Below are positions 9,367-55,534 of a DNA stretch of 61,782 nt, piece by piece; positions within the stretch are counted from its first letter, which is position 1, and each line of letters starts with the position of its first letter. The position numbers were made by a program, and so were the translations under genes. Source of the DNA: a bacterium (GTDB taxonomy: Bacteria > UBP6 > UBA1177); contig JAGCXM010000033.1 in assembly GCA_017961325.1 (NCBI GenBank), forward strand, positions 1-61,782. Direction: 5' to 3'. Under the pieces are notes generated by a model. The model was not told where the DNA came from. It worked only from the letters and a program-made list of their open reading frames with translations, and did not search any database.

Positions 9367-11244
9367 ATGAAGAAGTTATTTCTTTTATTGTTGATGTTTT
9401 TTCTCAGTTTATTTTTTCTTTCCTGCGGCGAATCTTCCGATGATTCTTCAACGTCAGATTTGCATTGTGAAAGCAATTCGGATTGTCCGTTAGGACAGAT
9501 ATGTTCGGCCGGCAGATGTATTGTGCCGGATTCTTCCGACAACGGTTCCGGTGAAGGGAACGGCGGAGGGAATTCCGGTTCCGGAAGCAGTTCCGAAGGC
9601 GGTTCCGAAGGCGGCAATTCGAATCCTTCCGACGGGGATGTGTCAACGGATGACAGCGATCCGGAAGAGGGAAATGTCACGGGATCATGTGAACCGGGAA
9701 AAAAACAGAAATGTGATTATCAGGGTCCGGAAGGAACTGAAAATGTCGGGCCATGCAGGGCTGCGGAAAGAACATGTAAGGAAGACGGAACATGGGGATA
9801 CTGCGAGGGAGAAGTTATTCCTGAATACGAAAGCGGTGAAGATCTTTGTACCAACGGCATTGACGATGACTGTGACGGTATTGTCGACAACGGAGCAAAC
9901 AATGCCTGCAACGGCGGTTATGAAGAAGAGGATGACAGTGATGTCGAACATTGCGAAACGGTATGTCAGATTAACACTGAAGACGGTTGCAAAAATAAAA
10001 TGGATAGTGAATATGATGCGTCACTCTGCGGGACAAATCCGCCGAGTCCTGACTGTCTTTGCAACGGCTTGGATGACGATTGCGACGGCAAAATCGATGA
10101 AGGCTGTCCCTGCAACTTGGGTGACACTCAGGCCTGTTTCTCGGGAAAACCTGCACAGAGAGGAGTCGGAACATGCCACGACGGCGTTCAGACATGCAAA
10201 ATGGGTCCGATAAGAGGTACCGTCGGAACATGGGGCGAATGCAAAGGCGAAATTCTGCCGAAAAAAGATGTCTGCGACAACGCCGACAACAACTGCAACG
10301 GTTGCAAGGACGAAGGTCTCTGCTGTGCTCCGGCCATTGACTGTGATTATGACATCGGGAATGCAACTCCTTTTATTGATAAGGAAATCGACGGAACGCT
10401 GATTTATGATATCGATCACAAATTCAACGATGCCGATACCGTAAAGTGGGAGTGGACTTTGACGAAGGGTCCGTGCGATATAGTTCTCGGCAAAACCAGT
10501 TTTTCTTTCGCCAGTAACGTTGAAGGCATTGCGGGCGTAAGCACGGATACTTCAGAAGCAATCACTTTCAGCGGAATCGGCTTGAAAAAATTCAAAGTCA
10601 ACTTCCAGCTTTCCGGAACTTACAACCTGCATCTTAAAATCACACGCGAAGGTGATCCTGAATCACCATACGAGTGTGAATGGCCGCTGAAAGTCGTTTC
10701 CACCGGTCTCAGGGTCGAACTCTGCTGGGATACAAATCAGGCCCCGAAAAGAGTTGATGTCGATTTGCATGTCGGTAAAAACGGCACTACAACAGCCTGG
10801 GGTTCCAGTGATTGCTATTTCAGCAACTGCAGAGGCAGCAGTTCTCCGAGATGGTATGACGAAACGGAAAATGGAAATAACCCGCGGCTTGACATTGATA
10901 ATAAAGGCGAAGGACCGATACCGGAAAACATCAATATCGATAATCCCGGAGACGGACATTCTTTCAGGGTAGGGGCATACTATCATCCTACTTTAAGTAC
11001 AGACAACATAGAAACGCATGCTGTCGTAAACATTTACTGCGGCGGAACCCGAAAAGCGACTTACGGTTTTGATCCTCTTCCTCAGCTGACAGGTTTTAAT
11101 AAAAAATATGATTTCTGGAAAGTTGTCGAAATCAAGTGGGTCGGTGACAATTTGAGTGATGAATGCGAAATCTTTCCGAAATTGGATAATGACGGCAATT
11201 ATGTCATAGACCGTCCGCGAGATACGAATTACAACAACTGGTAA
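9367..11244 (+). CDS. Multidomain lipoprotein, paralogue 2
   Basis: Same plan as the preceding gene: lipobox FLSC (Cys20), a Cys module with CPLGQICSAGRC, a Gly/Ser-rich then acidic linker, CNGLDDDCDGKIDEGC and CDNADNNCNGCKDEG motifs, a PKD-like domain and a YfaP/DUF2135-like C-terminus. It differs by an added Cys segment near residues 100-185 that contains another Asp-rich repeat (CTNGIDDDCDGIVDNG), giving three metal-type motifs. Its linker is Gly/Ser (GGNSGSGSSSEGG) rather than the Asp/Pro repeat of paralogue 1. The last residues YNNW match the YSNW end of paralogue 1. Role unknown. Confidence 0.9.
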   Translation: MKKLFLLLLMFFLSLFFLSCGESSDDSSTSDLHCESNSDCPLGQICSAGRCIVPDSSDNGSGEGNGGGNSGSGSSSEGGSEGGNSNPSDGDVSTDDSDPEEGNVTGSCEPGKKQKCDYQGPEGTENVGPCRAAERTCKEDGTWGYCEGEVIPEYESGEDLCTNGIDDDCDGIVDNGANNACNGGYEEEDDSDVEHCETVCQINTEDGCKNKMDSEYDASLCGTNPPSPDCLCNGLDDDCDGKIDEGCPCNLGDTQACFSGKPAQRGVGTCHDGVQTCKMGPIRGTVGTWGECKGEILPKKDVCDNADNNCNGCKDEGLCCAPAIDCDYDIGNATPFIDKEIDGTLIYDIDHKFNDADTVKWEWTLTKGPCDIVLGKTSFSFASNVEGIAGVSTDTSEAITFSGIGLKKFKVNFQLSGTYNLHLKITREGDPESPYECEWPLKVVSTGLRVELCWDTNQAPKRVDVDLHVGKNGTTTAWGSSDCYFSNCRGSSSPRWYDETENGNNPRLDIDNKGEGPIPENINIDNPGDGHSFRVGAYYHPTLSTDNIETHAVVNIYCGGTRKATYGFDPLPQLTGFNKKYDFWKVVEIKWVGDNLSDECEIFPKLDNDGNYVIDRPRDTNYNNW

Positions 11245-11255
11245 GACCGTTAAAG

Positions 11256-11327
11256 TCTGAATTTTTTCTTTAAATTTTCCAAAAAATAAAGTTTAATATC
11301 CGGATTTTGTTTTTTGTGGAGAAAGTT
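11256..11327 (+). promoter_or_regulatory. Duplicated leader/promoter module before paralogue 3
   Basis: Repeats the TCTGAATTTTTTCTTTAAAT block of the 9294 spacer, then TTTAATATCCGG and a GTGGAG site. The TTTAAT is a candidate -10. Confidence 0.4.
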
Positions 11328-12968
11328 ATGAAAAAGTTATTTGTTTTATTTTCAACGTTTTTTGTCGGCCTGTTTCTGGTTTCATGCGGCAGTTCGGAAT
11401 CTGACCATAAAGCATGCGAAAGCAACCTCGACTGTCCTGATGCCGGAGAGGTGTGTTCCGACGGAGAATGTGTTGCCGATTCATCTTCCGAACATGATGA
11501 CGGACGTGAAATTCCTGTTTCCGACAATGAACCTCATGCCGATTCTGATTCAAATTCTTCAGATGACGATGGTGAAAATTCAACGGATTCAGCGGATGAA
11601 AGCGGTGAAGATGCCGTAACAGATGATTCCGGCGACAGCGATACCACTGATTCCCGGCCGGATAATGATTCCGACGGAATAGAAGTTAAGCCTGATGAGA
11701 AATGTGAAGGCTTTATCTCTGAAACCGGTTGTATTGCCGCGATGGATAGCGAATATCCGGACTATTGCGACGGTCTTGACAATGACTGCGACGGCAAAGT
11801 TGATGAAAACTGTCCGTGTACGGCAGGTGAAACTCAGGCTTGTTTCAGCGGAAAACCTGCTCAGAGAAATGTCGGCACATGTGCCGACGGTATTCAGACC
11901 TGCAGGGTTTTTATGCGGGGAGGAGAAGCTCTCGGAACATGGGGCGAATGCAAAGGCGAGATTCTGCCGCAGGAAGATCTTTGCGATAGAGCAGACAACA
12001 ACTGCAACGGCTGCACAGACGAGGGTCTCAGCTGCACTCCGAAAATCAACTGCAACTACAAGATCGGAACGGCTCTTCCTTTTGTCGACAAAGTAATTGA
12101 CGGAACAAAAATTTACGAGTTCAGCGATACCGGCAAGGTAACCTGGGAATGGAAAATGAGTAAAGGCCCGTGTGACATCGTTCTCGGCAAAACGAGTTTT
12201 ACGACGAAAGCCGCAAAAACTTTGGAAGGACTTGAAGGTGACGGAGAAGAAACCGATGTAGTCAGCGGTGTCGGTCTTTCCCAGTTCAAAGTCAACTTCA
12301 AACTTTCGGGAAACTATACTCTTCACCTTAAAATCACACGCGAAAACGGGGAAACTTACGAATGTGAATGGAAGCTGAAAGTCGAATCAGACGGTCTCAG
12401 AGTCGAGCTCTGTTGGGATACGACAGGGCCGGCAGGAACGGATATCGACCTCCATCTTGGTAAAAATGGCGTAACGACGGCCTGGGGAAATATCTACAAC
12501 ACTACTGACAATCTGGCTTGTTACTACATGAACTGCAAATATGATCTCTCGGAAGGTCCTGACTGGGGTTACGAGGAAACAGAGAATTATGATAAAGACG
12601 GAAATAAAGGGATGATGAGAAATCCGCGTCTTGATATGGATAATGTCGTAACGGAAGGAAAACCTGAAAATATAAATCTCGACAATCCGAAAGAAGGGGA
12701 CACTTTCAGAGTTCTGGTTCACCGTTTTCACTTTAATACGACTTTTGAAACGCATCCGGTCGTCAATATTTACTGCGGCGGCACTTTGAAGGCTACTTAC
12801 GGAGTCGATCCGCAGCTTTCAGGTTTCAAAGATGAGAACGATTCCTGGGAAGTTGTCGAAATCAAGTGGGTCGGCGGCTATTCAAGTGACAAATGCGAAC
12901 TCACTCCGAAATGGGATAACGGATATGTAGTAAATGAAGCGGCACTTCCCGATTACCTCGGCTGGTGA
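11328..12968 (+). CDS. Multidomain lipoprotein, paralogue 3
   Basis: The ATG at 11328 follows GTGGAG; the frame is open upstream only through a TTG at 11307 without a site. Lipobox LVSC (Cys20), a Cys module with CPDAGEVCSDGEC, an Asp/Ser/Glu linker, CDGLDNDCDGKVDENC and CDRADNNCNGCTDEG motifs, then PKD-like and YfaP/DUF2135-like domains (DIDLHLGKNGVTTAWG, NPRLDMDN, CGGTLKATYGVDP). At 546 aa it is the shortest paralogue, mostly through a shorter linker. It ends YLGW. It is followed by a separate promoter for the CNNM gene. Confidence 0.9.
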   Translation: MKKLFVLFSTFFVGLFLVSCGSSESDHKACESNLDCPDAGEVCSDGECVADSSSEHDDGREIPVSDNEPHADSDSNSSDDDGENSTDSADESGEDAVTDDSGDSDTTDSRPDNDSDGIEVKPDEKCEGFISETGCIAAMDSEYPDYCDGLDNDCDGKVDENCPCTAGETQACFSGKPAQRNVGTCADGIQTCRVFMRGGEALGTWGECKGEILPQEDLCDRADNNCNGCTDEGLSCTPKINCNYKIGTALPFVDKVIDGTKIYEFSDTGKVTWEWKMSKGPCDIVLGKTSFTTKAAKTLEGLEGDGEETDVVSGVGLSQFKVNFKLSGNYTLHLKITRENGETYECEWKLKVESDGLRVELCWDTTGPAGTDIDLHLGKNGVTTAWGNIYNTTDNLACYYMNCKYDLSEGPDWGYEETENYDKDGNKGMMRNPRLDMDNVVTEGKPENINLDNPKEGDTFRVLVHRFHFNTTFETHPVVNIYCGGTLKATYGVDPQLSGFKDENDSWEVVEIKWVGGYSSDKCELTPKWDNGYVVNEAALPDYLGW

Positions 12969-15422: not shown

Positions 15423-16262
15423 TTAAGATATTTTTTTGTTCACCGGACATGCTTTTACGCAGTCGCCGCATTTGATGCATTCGATGGAATTCACCTCTTT
15501 CACGGGATCGATTCCCATCGGACAGCTTTTTTCACATTTGTGACATGATACGCAACTTTTCTGATACAATCTGATCTGAAAAAGTGAAATGCGGTTGAAA
15601 AATCCAAGAATGAGTCCTAGCGGGCAGATGTAGCGGCAGAAGGCTCTTTTTTCGCGCATGAAACAGATCACGAAAAAAATCGTTAGGGCGACTTTCCACC
15701 AGAAAGTAAACCCGATGGAAGCGCGTAAACCGGAATTTGCAGCTATTATCGGAATGCCTGCGACGATAAGTCCGGACGGACAAACGTATGCGCAGAAGCC
15801 CTGAGCCAGTCCGAAAGCCGGAATTATCAAAACGAAGAAAAACAGGTTAAACCACTTTATATACCGGAATTTTTGTGGTAATTTTGCTTCGATATTCTTC
15901 CATGGCGAAATCGAATAAAGAATCTCCTGAAAAAATCCGAAAGGACAAACGTAAGCACAGGTTGCTCTTCCCAGTATCGCACCGGTTGCCGATAGTGTTC
16001 CGAGTGCGAAAAACGGAATCATCGAAGCATATTTTATGACATACTGCAGAGTTCCGAGCGGGCAGCCGAAAGCCATCGACGGGCAGCTGTAGCAGTGAAG
16101 TCCGGGAGCGCAGAAAGTCTTCGTCGGGCCGTTGTAAGGCTTGCCGGTCATGAAATTCGACAGGAACGGATTTTGTATTATTAAGAAGAATAATTGTATT
16201 AAATTTCTTTTGATGCTTAAACTTTTTATCTTTTCAAAAAAAGAACGTTTTGTTTCAATCAT
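15423..16262 (-). CDS. NapH/CcoG-like membrane polyferredoxin (4Fe-4S)
   Basis: A polytopic membrane protein with several cysteine clusters. Near the N-terminus is a Cys-rich loop (CAPGLHCYSCPSMAFGCP). Two CxxxCP motifs sit at membrane edges (CAYVCPFG and CAYVCPSG), a third is CRYICPLG, and the C-terminus has two ferredoxin 4Fe-4S motifs (CVSCHKCEKSCPMG and CIKCGDCVKACP). This is the NapH/NosR/MauN layout, moving electrons between the membrane and an Fe-S acceptor. It overlaps the upstream 72-aa gene by eight bases, and the activase is first in the same operon, so it may reduce that activase. Partner assignment is inference. Confidence 0.88.
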   Translation of the reverse strand: MIETKRSFFEKIKSLSIKRNLIQLFFLIIQNPFLSNFMTGKPYNGPTKTFCAPGLHCYSCPSMAFGCPLGTLQYVIKYASMIPFFALGTLSATGAILGRATCAYVCPFGFFQEILYSISPWKNIEAKLPQKFRYIKWFNLFFFVLIIPAFGLAQGFCAYVCPSGLIVAGIPIIAANSGLRASIGFTFWWKVALTIFFVICFMREKRAFCRYICPLGLILGFFNRISLFQIRLYQKSCVSCHKCEKSCPMGIDPVKEVNSIECIKCGDCVKACPVNKKIS

Positions 16263-16473
16263 TGCGTTTTTCCCCGCCGAATTTTTCCTTTATTTTCGCA
16301 AAAATGTCTTCGTCGAAAAGTCCGATGCAGCTCATGCAGATGTTTTTTCCGGCGGCTTTTACGAGATCTGTTTCCTTCGTGCCGTATTCGTCTATTTCAA
16401 CGGTAAAGGTGCGGACGATGAAAAAAGCCGAAACCGCGATGATTATTAGCGGAATAATTATTTTCTTCTTCAT
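16255..16473 (-). CDS. Small membrane protein with CMSC motif
   Basis: A 72-aa protein with an N-terminal helix (KKKIIIPLIIIAVSAFFIV) and a soluble tail that contains CMSC (about residues 46-49) followed by a Lys/Glu-rich end. It overlaps the activase gene by four bases (ATGA) and the polyferredoxin gene by eight, so it is part of a tightly packed operon. A thiol pair next to Fe-S and activase genes suggests a redox role or metal binding. I do not recognise a named family. Confidence 0.75.
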   Translation of the reverse strand: MKKKIIIPLIIIAVSAFFIVRTFTVEIDEYGTKETDLVKAAGKNICMSCIGLFDEDIFAKIKEKFGGEKRND

Positions 16474-17261
16474 TTTGCCTCCGTTTCCTTCATTGCGAAA
16501 AGTGCCGCTCCGAGTGCACCCATGAATTGTGAAAATTCATCGGTTTTTATTGACGAACCGAAAAATTTCTCGAGGTGAAATCTGACAGGTTTGAGTTTCG
16601 AGACGCCGCCCGACATGAAAAACGGCTGCTCGGGGTGAGTTTTTCGCGCCATGAAAAACGTGTTCGCCGCGACCATTCTGGCAAGCGATGAAGCTATCAC
16701 ATTCTGCGGAACGTCACGGGAAACCATTGAAATAACTTCGCTTTCTGCAAAAACCGTACATGTCGAATTGATTTTTACCGGTTCAACTTCCGAAACGTCA
16801 AGTTCTGCAAAATCATCTATTGAAAAACCTATGCGTTCCATCATTACTTCCAAAAATCTGCCGGTTCCCGCCGCACAGCGGTCGTTCATTGCAAAATCTT
16901 TGATTCTTGAATTATTATCAATGGTTATGACTTTGCTGTCCTGTCCGCCGATATCTATTATCGTTTTCGTTTCGGGATGAAGTCTGAGAACTCCCATGTA
17001 GTGGCAGGTTATTTCGGTCGCCGAAAAATCGCACATCGAAGCTGTGCTTTCCCTGCCGTAACCCGTGACCGCCGAAGCCGAGATTCTTTTTCTGAAATTT
17101 TCAGGAATCATCTCCGTCAAAGCGGCGTAGGTTTTCGTCGCGGAGGCGACGGTTTTTATTATTTCCGAAAAAACGATATTTTTTCCGTTGTCAATTATTG
17201 TGATTTTGCCGGTTCTCGAACCGATGTCGATACCGCAGAAAAATTTTTCCGAATCTTTCAT
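16470..17261 (-). CDS. CoA-dehydratase activase (BadF/BadG/HgdC family ATPase)
   Basis: An ASKHA-fold ATPase that uses ATP hydrolysis to drive low-potential electron transfer to a 2-hydroxyacyl-CoA dehydratase or similar enzyme. It has CGIDIGSRTGKI, DIGGQDSK and the family's cluster-binding segment NDRCAAGTGRFLEVM, plus a second cysteine at STCTVFAESEV. Those two cysteines in a dimer bind the 4Fe-4S cluster. At 263 aa it has the usual length. GGAGGTGAG precedes the ATG. No dehydratase subunit is adjacent, but an HgdB-like protein lies at 54521-55534. It heads the operon with the Cys-pair and NapH-like genes. Confidence 0.93.
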   Translation of the reverse strand: MKDSEKFFCGIDIGSRTGKITIIDNGKNIVFSEIIKTVASATKTYAALTEMIPENFRKRISASAVTGYGRESTASMCDFSATEITCHYMGVLRLHPETKTIIDIGGQDSKVITIDNNSRIKDFAMNDRCAAGTGRFLEVMMERIGFSIDDFAELDVSEVEPVKINSTCTVFAESEVISMVSRDVPQNVIASSLARMVAANTFFMARKTHPEQPFFMSGGVSKLKPVRFHLEKFFGSSIKTDEFSQFMGALGAALFAMKETEAK

Positions 17262-53738: not shown

Positions 53739-54521
53739 ATGTATATAGATTCTCACGCACACATTTTTATGACTGTTACGGAAAGAAACATCTCTCTGGA
53801 CGAAATAATTTCCGAACTGCACGAAAATCATGTCGATACCGTTCTTGACATCTGCGGAAGCGAACAGGATTTGGAATATCATAAAAAAGTAAACGAAATG
53901 TTTTGGAAAAACAACATAAATTTTTATGCTGCAGCAGGAATTCACCCTCAGGAATCGTCTAATTTCATTGATTCGGATATTTCATGGATAAGAAAAAACA
54001 GTGAAAATATAATTGCTGTAGGCGAAGTCGGTTTAGATTTTTTCTATGACTTTTCACCGAAAGAAATTCAGTTAAAAATGCTTCGAAGGATGATTGAACT
54101 TTCTATCGAACTGAAAAAACCTGTTTTAATTCATGGAAGATGCGGAGAGGCACTAATTTACGACATACTGAACGAATACGGTTTTGATGACAAAAAGGTG
54201 CTTTTTCACTGCTATACCGGTGATCTTGAAACAGCTGAAAAAATACTCGAAAAACAGTGGATGCTGTCGTTTTCGGGAATTCTGACATTCAAGAAATCTG
54301 CAGATGTTCTGAACATATTTAATCACACAAACGTAAACAATATGTTTTTCGAAACTGATTCTCCTTTTCTTGCACCTGTTCCTTTTCGGGGGAAACCGAA
54401 CACTCCTGGAAAGGTTAAGTATGTTTACGATTTTGCGGCAAACGTCTTAAATATGAAACAAGATGTTTTAGCTAATGAGATAAGAAAAAACTTCAACAAT
54501 TTTTTTAATTTAAACATTTAA
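53739..54521 (+). CDS. tatD: TatD-family metal-dependent hydrolase/DNase
   Basis: 260 aa amidohydrolase-fold protein. Metal ligands are visible in DSHAHIF (His6, His8), GEVGLDF (Glu), IHGRCGE (His), FHCYTGD (His) and ETDSPFLAP (Asp). TatD proteins are 3'-5' exonucleases or RNA processing enzymes in quality control. Codon use is more AT-rich than in ricT. Its stop overlaps the next start (TAATG). Confidence 0.93.
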   Translation: MYIDSHAHIFMTVTERNISLDEIISELHENHVDTVLDICGSEQDLEYHKKVNEMFWKNNINFYAAAGIHPQESSNFIDSDISWIRKNSENIIAVGEVGLDFFYDFSPKEIQLKMLRRMIELSIELKKPVLIHGRCGEALIYDILNEYGFDDKKVLFHCYTGDLETAEKILEKQWMLSFSGILTFKKSADVLNIFNHTNVNNMFFETDSPFLAPVPFRGKPNTPGKVKYVYDFAANVLNMKQDVLANEIRKNFNNFFNLNI

Positions 54522-55534
54522 TGCAGAAAATTGCAGCATTCACGACAACGGTTCCGGTTGAAGTCATACTCGCTTCGGGATACAGACCGCTTGACCTGAA
54601 CAATATTTTCGTTACGTCTGAAAATCCGGCCGGACTTGTCGAAAAAGCGGAGTTTTCCGGTTTTGCCGGAAGTTCGTGCGCCTGGATCAAAGGTCTCTAT
54701 TCGGTTCTGACTTCCGCTGAATTCAACAAAAATTTCGATGTTTTCATAGCAGTTACCGAGGGCGACTGCTCGAATGCAAAGGTTTTAGAACAGATAGTTG
54801 CGATGGAAACGGGAATAAAAACATTTGTCTTCAACTTTCCCTACAAACGCGACATTGAAAAAATACGAAATGAAATCAACAGGTTCGCAGAATTTATGGG
54901 AACCGATTACGCCTCCTGCGAAAAAGTTCGGAGGCAACTCGCCGGTTTGCGCAGAAAATTGAAGACAATAGATGAATCATCATACCTTTTCCCCGGCTGC
55001 GTAACAGGCGAAGAAAATCATCTTTTTCTGGTTTCATCATCCGATTTTTGCGGCAATCCTGATGAATATGAAAAGAAAGCCGATGATTTTATTAATGAAA
55101 TTGAGCAAAGAAAGCGTTTTGCCGATTTTTCAGGAAAGAGAATAGGATATCTTGGTGTTCCTCCGATAGTACCGATCTACCGGTTTTTGGAATCAAGGAA
55201 TGCAACGGTAGTGTACAATGAAATACAGCGTGAATTTGCAATGATCGGAGAATACTCTTCAATCGAAGAGCAGTATACGAACTACACATACCCCTACTCT
55301 GCCGTTTTCCGTTTTGAAAAAGCGATTTCTGAAATAAAAAGAAGAAATCTGGACGGAATCATTCACTACGTCCAGTCATTCTGTCACCGCCAGCTTGAAG
55401 ACATAATCCTCAGAAAACTTCTTGAAAAACACGGATTGAACATTCCGCTTTTAACTTTGGAATTCGACAAACCGGTCAGCAAAATAGACGCAAGAGTCGC
55501 CACAAGAATTGAAGCTTTTCTGGAAACTATCTGA
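54521..55534 (+). CDS. HgdB/BadD-like 2-hydroxyacyl-CoA dehydratase-family protein, stand-alone
   Basis: 337 aa. It matches the HgdB-family subunit that ligates a 4Fe-4S cluster: Cys in SSCAWIKG, EGDCSNAK and QSFCHRQLED, and a C-terminal segment LLTLEFDKPVSKIDARVATRIEAFLE typical of the family. The second dehydratase subunit (HgdA) is not adjacent. Single-subunit versions are known with dedicated activases and unknown substrates (E. coli YjiM with YjiL). The only activase in the window is at 16470-17261. It is coupled to tatD. Confidence 0.85.
   Translation: MQKIAAFTTTVPVEVILASGYRPLDLNNIFVTSENPAGLVEKAEFSGFAGSSCAWIKGLYSVLTSAEFNKNFDVFIAVTEGDCSNAKVLEQIVAMETGIKTFVFNFPYKRDIEKIRNEINRFAEFMGTDYASCEKVRRQLAGLRRKLKTIDESSYLFPGCVTGEENHLFLVSSSDFCGNPDEYEKKADDFINEIEQRKRFADFSGKRIGYLGVPPIVPIYRFLESRNATVVYNEIQREFAMIGEYSSIEEQYTNYTYPYSAVFRFEKAISEIKRRNLDGIIHYVQSFCHRQLEDIILRKLLEKHGLNIPLLTLEFDKPVSKIDARVATRIEAFLETI

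Follow-up and report, generated by a model that had tools for sequence, protein, structure and literature searches.

Reducing equivalents are delivered across the bacterial membrane to extracytoplasmic thioredoxin-like proteins by DsbD/CcdA (PF02683), a relay of membrane Cys pairs that is fed by cytoplasmic thioredoxin. A different type of membrane carrier is found in NapH/MauN and the flavinylated NapH-like systems, which combine a Fer4_5 domain with C-terminal ferredoxin clusters and for which transmembrane electron flow has been proposed. Here we describe a locus from a bacterium of the UBP6 phylum (GTDB lineage UBP6; UBA1177), lying at positions 15423-17261 of a 61,782-nucleotide stretch (GenBank assembly GCA_017961325.1, contig JAGCXM010000033.1; hereafter the window), in which a NapH-like polyferredoxin is encoded together with a 72-amino-acid (aa) membrane protein bearing a CXXC motif and an HgdC-type ATP-dependent activase. 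The small protein and the polyferredoxin, which we refer to as the pair, belong together well beyond UBP6, and we propose, with a probability of roughly 0.55, that they constitute an unnamed Fe-S-to-thiol membrane relay that reduces extracytoplasmic thioredoxins and is able to stand in for DsbD/CcdA, with the activase being a separate unit.

Several described systems come close to this one. A survey of flavinylation (PMC8238504) covers NapH-like conduits with flavin mononucleotide (FMN)-binding partners and handles DsbD separately; the available part of that survey mentions neither a CXXC mini-protein nor a NapH-TlpA operon. In Clostridium ljungdahlii, PMC5640608 reports an operon (CLJU_RS13020-13030) coding for DsbD-superfamily membrane, NapH-like Fe-S membrane, and periplasmic proteins, which is raised on syngas and H2/CO2. 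The C. ljungdahlii operon includes a DsbD-type protein; a CXXC mini-protein and TlpA are the usual components of the present module. Among reviews of selenoproteins, a subject that bears on some versions of the small protein, the main text of PMC13188914 (2026), searched by term, names neither NF040920 nor CD1871A, the family of which the small protein is a divergent relative, and no such family was found in the available part of PMC9312934. We found no description of a TlpA-CXXC-NapH module in the open-licence PMC literature, and as far as these searches go the pair is unnamed there.

Organization of the locus

The three genes and their shared features are as follows:

16470..17261, minus strand: HgdC-type ATP-dependent activase, 263 aa, single domain (TIGR00241, PF01869)
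16255..16473, minus strand: CMSC small membrane protein, 72 aa, single helix, a divergent relative of the CD1871A CXXC family
16327..16338, minus strand: codons of the CMSC motif (residues 46-49), taken from the sequence
15423..16262, minus strand: NapH-like membrane polyferredoxin, 279 aa (PF12801 Fer4_5 and Fer4 above cut-off)
16470..16473, minus strand: 4-bp ATGA overlap of the activase stop and the small-gene start, present in 15 of the 16 genomes with a contiguous trio
16255..16262, minus strand: 8 bp shared by the small and NapH-like genes

An earlier note on this DNA had described these as three genes in one overlapping operon, and the open reading frames, their placement on the minus strand, and both the 4-bp and 8-bp overlaps bear this out. 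None of the three proteins has a PF02683 or PF13386 (DsbD/CcdA) domain among its Pfam matches.

The NapH-like protein scores above the cut-offs of PF12801 Fer4_5 (49 versus 22) and PF00037 (34.1 versus 21.1). Its best named match is TIGR02163 NapH/MauN, the cut-off of which it does not reach (63.4 versus 213.05 bits; aligned residues 68-275), a shortfall shared by three homologues from outside UBP6. We rejected an identity as a canonical NapH or CcoG, the scores being far under both cut-offs. The protein contains a CYSCPx5CP motif, three CxxxCP motifs, and two 4Fe-4S ferredoxin motifs, and, unlike NapH/MauN, it has an extra N-terminal CYSCP...C, which the alignment to the NapH model does not cover. 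An alignment of 26 NapH-like proteins (A1, from which L159 and L167, of the 27 open reading frames found, were left out) has 17 conserved Cys in the numbering of the window protein, of which 13 are invariant and four are present in 25 of the 26 rows. An AlphaFold2 model (mean pLDDT 77.9, pTM 0.78) retrieved no match at E<=0.001 in a Foldseek search against the PDB; searched against PDB sequences, the A1 profile recovered the ferredoxin part only, the best 60 of 104 matches all starting at profile position 220 or beyond. The protein would have four helices with both termini inside, a layout in which CYSCP...C would face outward together with the second CxxxCP, and the ferredoxin motifs would face inward together with the first and third CxxxCP. 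The charge counts of the N terminus (+3.7), loop 2 (+2.8), loop 3 (-0.5), and C terminus (+4.4) fit this layout, with that of loop 1 (+2.7) being ambiguous.

The small protein is comprised of one N-terminal hydrophobic helix followed by CMSCIG and a 21-residue tail, and a Pfam scan of it gave no match. It aligns with CD1871A (NF040920) members, which are likewise small, have a single helix and a CxxCIG motif, and mostly occupy the same position directly 5' of a NapH-like gene; it differs from them in being longer, on account of the tail. Both Cys of the motif and the Gly two residues further on are invariant in 25 aligned homologues (alignment A2, which omits L154 and L159, both with a UGA, and the variant L161). 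By a working definition of our own, drawn from the loci seen in this analysis (one membrane helix, CxxCIG, and an adjacent NapH-like gene), the 72-aa protein is CD1871A-like. In 86 of 104 small proteins positive charge is greater on the N side of the helix, as expected for an outer CXXC. One family (f34) has variant versions of about 102-109 aa (L161:6577-6906, L296:4231-4539, L304:4253-4561) with extra hydrophobic helices ahead of CLSCIG, also encoded directly 5' of the NapH-like gene.

The small protein travels with the polyferredoxin

We surveyed a phylum sample of 28 UBP6 genomes (G000-G027), a wider set of 386 genomes, and 80 named loci, the last mostly from Clostridia and Negativicutes. 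CD1871A (NF040920) occurs in 22 of the 386 genomes and a strong A1 match (at least 198 bits, the next best being 114) in 62, and all 22 are among these 62. At the 23 CD1871A loci of this set the NapH-like gene is directly adjacent in 17 and elsewhere in the genome in six; in four of these six, the gene immediately 5' of the small gene codes for a thioredoxin lipoprotein confirmed by Pfam. The small and NapH-like genes lie side by side in 78 of the 80 named loci and within about 1.1 kb of each other in the remaining two. In contrast, the activase is present in just three of the 80, all from UBP6 (L203, also from UBP6, starts at the small gene), and 15 of the 42 pair-bearing genomes outside UBP6 have no activase at E<=1e-30; the genome-wide association of activase and pair is accordingly weak outside UBP6 (27/42 versus 151/316, p=0.05). 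The small Cys-pair protein thus belongs with the NapH-like protein and not with the activase: the idea that it co-occurs only with both holds for the former (22 of 22 genomes and 78 of 80 loci) and fails for the latter. An activase-specific small protein was likewise ruled out, as the small protein follows the NapH-like gene across the 386 genomes and the 80 loci.

Within UBP6 itself, the activase has an ortholog in 22 of the 28 genomes and the NapH-like protein in 20, all of which also have the activase. The trio is contiguous in 16 of these 20, which rules out chance adjacency and runs counter to the suggestion that its order might recur in no relative. The 4-bp ATGA overlap is replaced by a 144-bp gap in the one contiguous trio that lacks it (G020). 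The activase and the pair are on separate contigs in G021-G023, and in G021 the small gene is still directly 5' of the NapH-like gene; contiguity in G012 cannot be judged because the activase is at a contig end. A further two, G016 and G019, lack the pair but do have the activase. Near-identical loci (L203-L206) carry the labels bacterium UBP6_UBA1177 and ruminant-gut metagenome-assembled genomes.

Thioredoxin neighbors and fusions

The most frequent neighbor of the pair in the named loci is a TlpA/ResA-type thioredoxin gene, recognized by means of a profile made from five loci and confirmed by Pfam in all four scanned from these loci: it is directly 5' of the small gene in 62 of the 80 and directly 3' of the NapH-like gene in two. 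The order in Clostridium tetanomorphum, with a ResA-like lipoprotein followed by CD1871A (69.6 bits) and the NapH-like protein, is typical. In the 386-genome set, 20 neighbors chosen by hand were scanned with Pfam, and ten of these are thioredoxin-fold proteins above the cut-offs, nine of them at CD1871A loci (of 23). The neighboring thioredoxins are of the AhpC-TSA/Redoxin type. The window's genome also codes for two TlpA-like proteins with lipoprotein-type starts and a WCEPC motif.

In two genomes (G127 and G265) the connection takes the form of a gene fusion:

L290:944-3034 and L300:811-3366: TlpA-CTACVG-thioredoxin fusion genes, each followed by the NapH-like gene

These proteins run from a thioredoxin domain with CGPC through a transmembrane helix, RGR, a second transmembrane helix, and CTACVG to a thioredoxin domain with CKSC, the two helices being joined by a positively charged turn. 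If the first (CGPC) domain is exported, then the CXXC would be placed outside.

Other associations were also seen around the pair. In one family (f28; L138 and L139, from two genomes) the CXXC gene is immediately preceded, on its 5' side, by a DUF6599 gene, and large secreted-type proteins are encoded downstream of the pair at L148:9484-13496 and L160:9132-13097, one of them with a weak, sub-threshold DSBA match. The window itself has, on the plus strand, tandem paralogous lipoprotein-like genes at 9367-11244 and 11307-12968 (625 and 553 aa), whose products contain many Cys and CDGxDNDCDG-type repeats; these are probably secreted proteins rich in disulfides, for which thiol quality control may be required.

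UGA at the first cysteine of the CXXC motif

When 124 small-gene stretches were read through stops to the CXXC, six were found to hold a stop. One of these precedes the ATG, and the other five are all UGA at the first Cys of the motif: Clostridium tepidiprofundi (L242) and the genomes G130 (L131), G161, G312, and G336 (the remaining loci being L136, L294, and L302). In G130 a tRNA-Sec gene (L131:1366-1463; Rfam 68.3 bits against a gathering threshold of 47, with ARAGORN in agreement) ends at 1463, 8 bp ahead of the ATG of the small gene at 1471. A change of genetic code was rejected as the source of these codons, since UGA also terminates long open reading frames in four of the five loci (L302 has none among four).

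A stem of 6-7 bp with a loop starting in GG follows the UGA in all five loci. Among Cys-containing controls, stems of at least 6 bp occur in 10 of 79, only one of which (L237) has five or more Watson-Crick pairs; the folding of the 45 nt after the UGA clearly beats shuffles in L294 only (fraction 0.034, versus 0.13-0.34 in the others), and an Rfam scan of the five loci gave no selenocysteine insertion sequence (SECIS) family. Given the comparable stems in the controls, the case for a SECIS element is suggestive only. These genes probably code for selenocysteine forms of the CD1871A-type small protein, which points to a redox-active thiol rather than to a site that is structural or serves only to bind metal.

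Distribution relative to DsbD/CcdA

PF02683 is present in 314 of the 386 genomes. Outside UBP6 it is found in 22 of the 42 pair-bearing genomes as against 283 of the 316 others (p=4e-8). The contrast recurs among activase-bearing genomes, taken as a rough proxy for anaerobes (13/27 with the pair versus 133/151 without, p=1e-5), among activase-free genomes (9/15 versus 150/165, p=0.003), and among VKOR-negative genomes (14/26 versus 125/143, p=0.0002), all of these being counts of genomes made without a tree. The VKOR tests take the 247 genomes scanned to be G000-G246.

Within UBP6, DsbD occurs in 4 of 20 pair-bearing and 5 of 8 pair-less genomes (p=0.07). PF02683 was not found in G000-G015 or G017, with the window's own genome being among those that lack DsbD/CcdA and its genus being devoid of it altogether, and is present in the pair-less G016, G018 (weakly, E 1.6e-8), and G019, of which G018 shares a genus with G017. 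PF13386 was not found in G000-G012, the sample for this domain being without G013-G018; the window's genome has neither PF13386 nor PF02683. One genome, 84% complete, has neither pair nor DsbD (G008).

The activase and its likely client

The activase is a clear member of its family, matching TIGR00241 (210.4 bits against a cut-off of 125.4) as well as PF01869, and its nearest solved structures include 1hux (183.8 bits), 4eht, and 7yyl among five. In TIGR00241-type activases two Cys bridge one 4Fe-4S cluster in the dimer. Inspection by eye reveals NDRCAAGTG and STCTVFAESE in the window protein, which we take to be the cluster-binding Cys motifs. A candidate for its client is encoded further along the window:

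54521..55534, plus strand: HGD-D/double-cubane-type dehydratase-reductase, 337 aa (PF06050)

This protein is the sole HGD-D match in the genome (PF06050, 118.6 bits against a cut-off of 28.4); it matches the double-cubane structures 6eno/7yyl and falls short of NF040772 double_cubane (56.4 versus 350 bits, residues 4-337). The locus resembles the described activase/double-cubane systems (1hux, 7yyl, 6eno) in sequence and differs from them in arrangement: the activase is not adjacent to a dehydratase gene as in an HgdCAB-type operon, the reductase gene being 37 kb away. In the relative G013 the distance is 2.4 kb. Two distant genomes (G030, G042) have an HGD-D relative that is directly followed by its own activase. 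The presence of the reductase as the only HGD-D protein in the genome, together with these gene orders and its likeness to double-cubane proteins, suggests that the activase most likely serves the 54521-55534 protein. Tracking of the two within UBP6 is imperfect, as G020 has the activase without an HGD-D ortholog and G008 and G018 have HGD-D without the activase. The genome additionally contains two giant open frames with tandem activase domains (1327 and 1397 aa), at G000:C42:31962-33680 and G000:C25:10076-11503.

Proposed mechanism and alternatives

We propose that the operon joins two functional units, one comprised of the CXXC and NapH-like proteins and the other of the activase. The NapH-like protein would take up low-potential electrons at its ferredoxin-type clusters in the cytoplasm and pass them through the membrane by way of clusters bound at its CxxxCP and CYSCP motifs. 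At the outer face these electrons would reduce the disulfide formed by the CXXC of the small protein; the resulting dithiol would then reduce extracytoplasmic TlpA/ResA-type thioredoxins. The proposed job is that of DsbD/CcdA elsewhere, but the pair differs in its 4Fe-4S motifs and its single outer CXXC. The sampled genome of the window's genus has TlpA-type lipoproteins and no DsbD/CcdA, and in this genus the pair would be the only such electron supplier that was found. The activase would energize the 54521-55534 reductase, and its translational coupling to the pair in UBP6, and the conservation of that overlap, may, at a guess, reflect a shared need for reduced ferredoxin. We give about even odds to the broader proposition that the pair represents an undescribed class of transmembrane thiol reductase, with selenocysteine forms, in which electrons reach TlpA-type thioredoxins through Fe-S clusters instead of a Cys-pair relay and which replaces DsbD/CcdA in many anaerobes.

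Several observations weigh against this proposal. The 72-aa protein does not reach the cut-off of NF040920 (12.6 bits, E 0.097, against 32), to which its homologue in G017 shows no match, and two NapH-like loci (L291, L293) have no visible small gene. The other ten hand-picked neighbors in the 386-genome set are not thioredoxin-fold proteins, eight matching unrelated families (alkaline phosphatase, a pterin enzyme, Mrp-type ParA, OMP, PEGA, Por_Secre_tail, and two DUF6599) and two matching nothing, so the thioredoxin link is strongest in Clostridia; in the UBP6 loci inspected, no thioredoxin gene adjoins the pair. As about half of the pair-bearing genomes outside UBP6 have DsbD, the pair is no strict substitute for it, and the contrast is weaker by family: of 25 pair-bearing families, eight are without DsbD in all sampled members, seven are mixed, and ten have it. 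VKOR, too, is rarer with the pair (1/27 versus 49/192, p=0.012), and lifestyle may thus confound the anticorrelation with DsbD. Finally, the tight retention of the activase/small-gene overlap in UBP6 points to a possible functional tie, which we discount.

This rarity of VKOR would also fit an oxidative version of the pair, in which electrons withdrawn from extracytoplasmic thiols by the outer CXXC are conveyed inward by the NapH-like protein, making disulfides in the manner of DsbB/VKOR. The Cys-rich lipoprotein genes at 9367-12968 in the window speak for this version as well, as does MauN, a relative of NapH, which sits with the thioredoxin-like MauD in methylamine dehydrogenase clusters. 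However, the AhpC-TSA/Redoxin-type thioredoxins next to the pair, ResA-like in C. tetanomorphum, are of kinds that are usually reducing, VKOR-negative genomes still show the anticorrelation of the pair with the reductive DsbD/CcdA, and cytoplasmic 4Fe-4S ferredoxin motifs would be better matched to a low-potential donor than to an acceptor; we hold the oxidative direction to be unlikely. It is a little less likely still that the CXXC provides ligands for an Fe-S cluster of the NapH-like protein, forming a membrane reductase that works through clusters alone and serves a range of periplasmic acceptors. The variety of neighbors among the loci of the 386-genome set would agree with this, as would a motif that ends the small protein beside a partner with 17 conserved Cys. 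Against it stand the UGA codons, confined to the first Cys (5 of 124) and in one case beside a tRNA-Sec gene, as selenocysteine is characteristic of thiol sites that are redox-active and is seldom an Fe-S ligand, and the fusion of the CXXC between two thioredoxin domains in G127 and G265.

The earlier note had instead viewed the trio as a single system, with the membrane proteins supplying electrons to the activase and thereby driving an ATP-dependent low-potential reductase. Parts of that view stand: in this family the trio is a conserved operon, and the polyferredoxin has the features of a membrane electron carrier. The 16 contiguous UBP6 loci, 15 with the same ATGA overlap, the invariable presence of the activase in the NapH-bearing UBP6 genomes, and an HGD-D client in the same genome all speak for it. 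Yet the absence of the activase from 15 of the 42 pair-bearing genomes outside UBP6 and from 77 of the 80 named loci does not sit with a single system, and in UBP6 it occurs without the pair (G016, G019) or apart from it (G021-G023). The existence of an HGD-D partner also argues against the trio as one system. Further, soluble ferredoxin or flavodoxin normally reduces HgdC-type activases. We consider this supply role doubtful, somewhat more so than the two possibilities above, and the converse arrangement, with the ATP-driven activase pushing electrons into the pair in UBP6, very improbable.

Implications

Many anaerobes make extracytoplasmic thioredoxins in the absence of DsbD/CcdA, and how these are kept reduced is the question to which the proposed relay speaks. 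If the proposal is correct, a module of two or three genes would fill this gap in Clostridia, Negativicutes, UBP6, and other lineages, drawing on ferredoxin-type clusters rather than on thioredoxin. It would also provide a function for the unnamed CD1871A family. The first reading of the locus is corrected accordingly, with the activase being a companion of the pair in one lineage.

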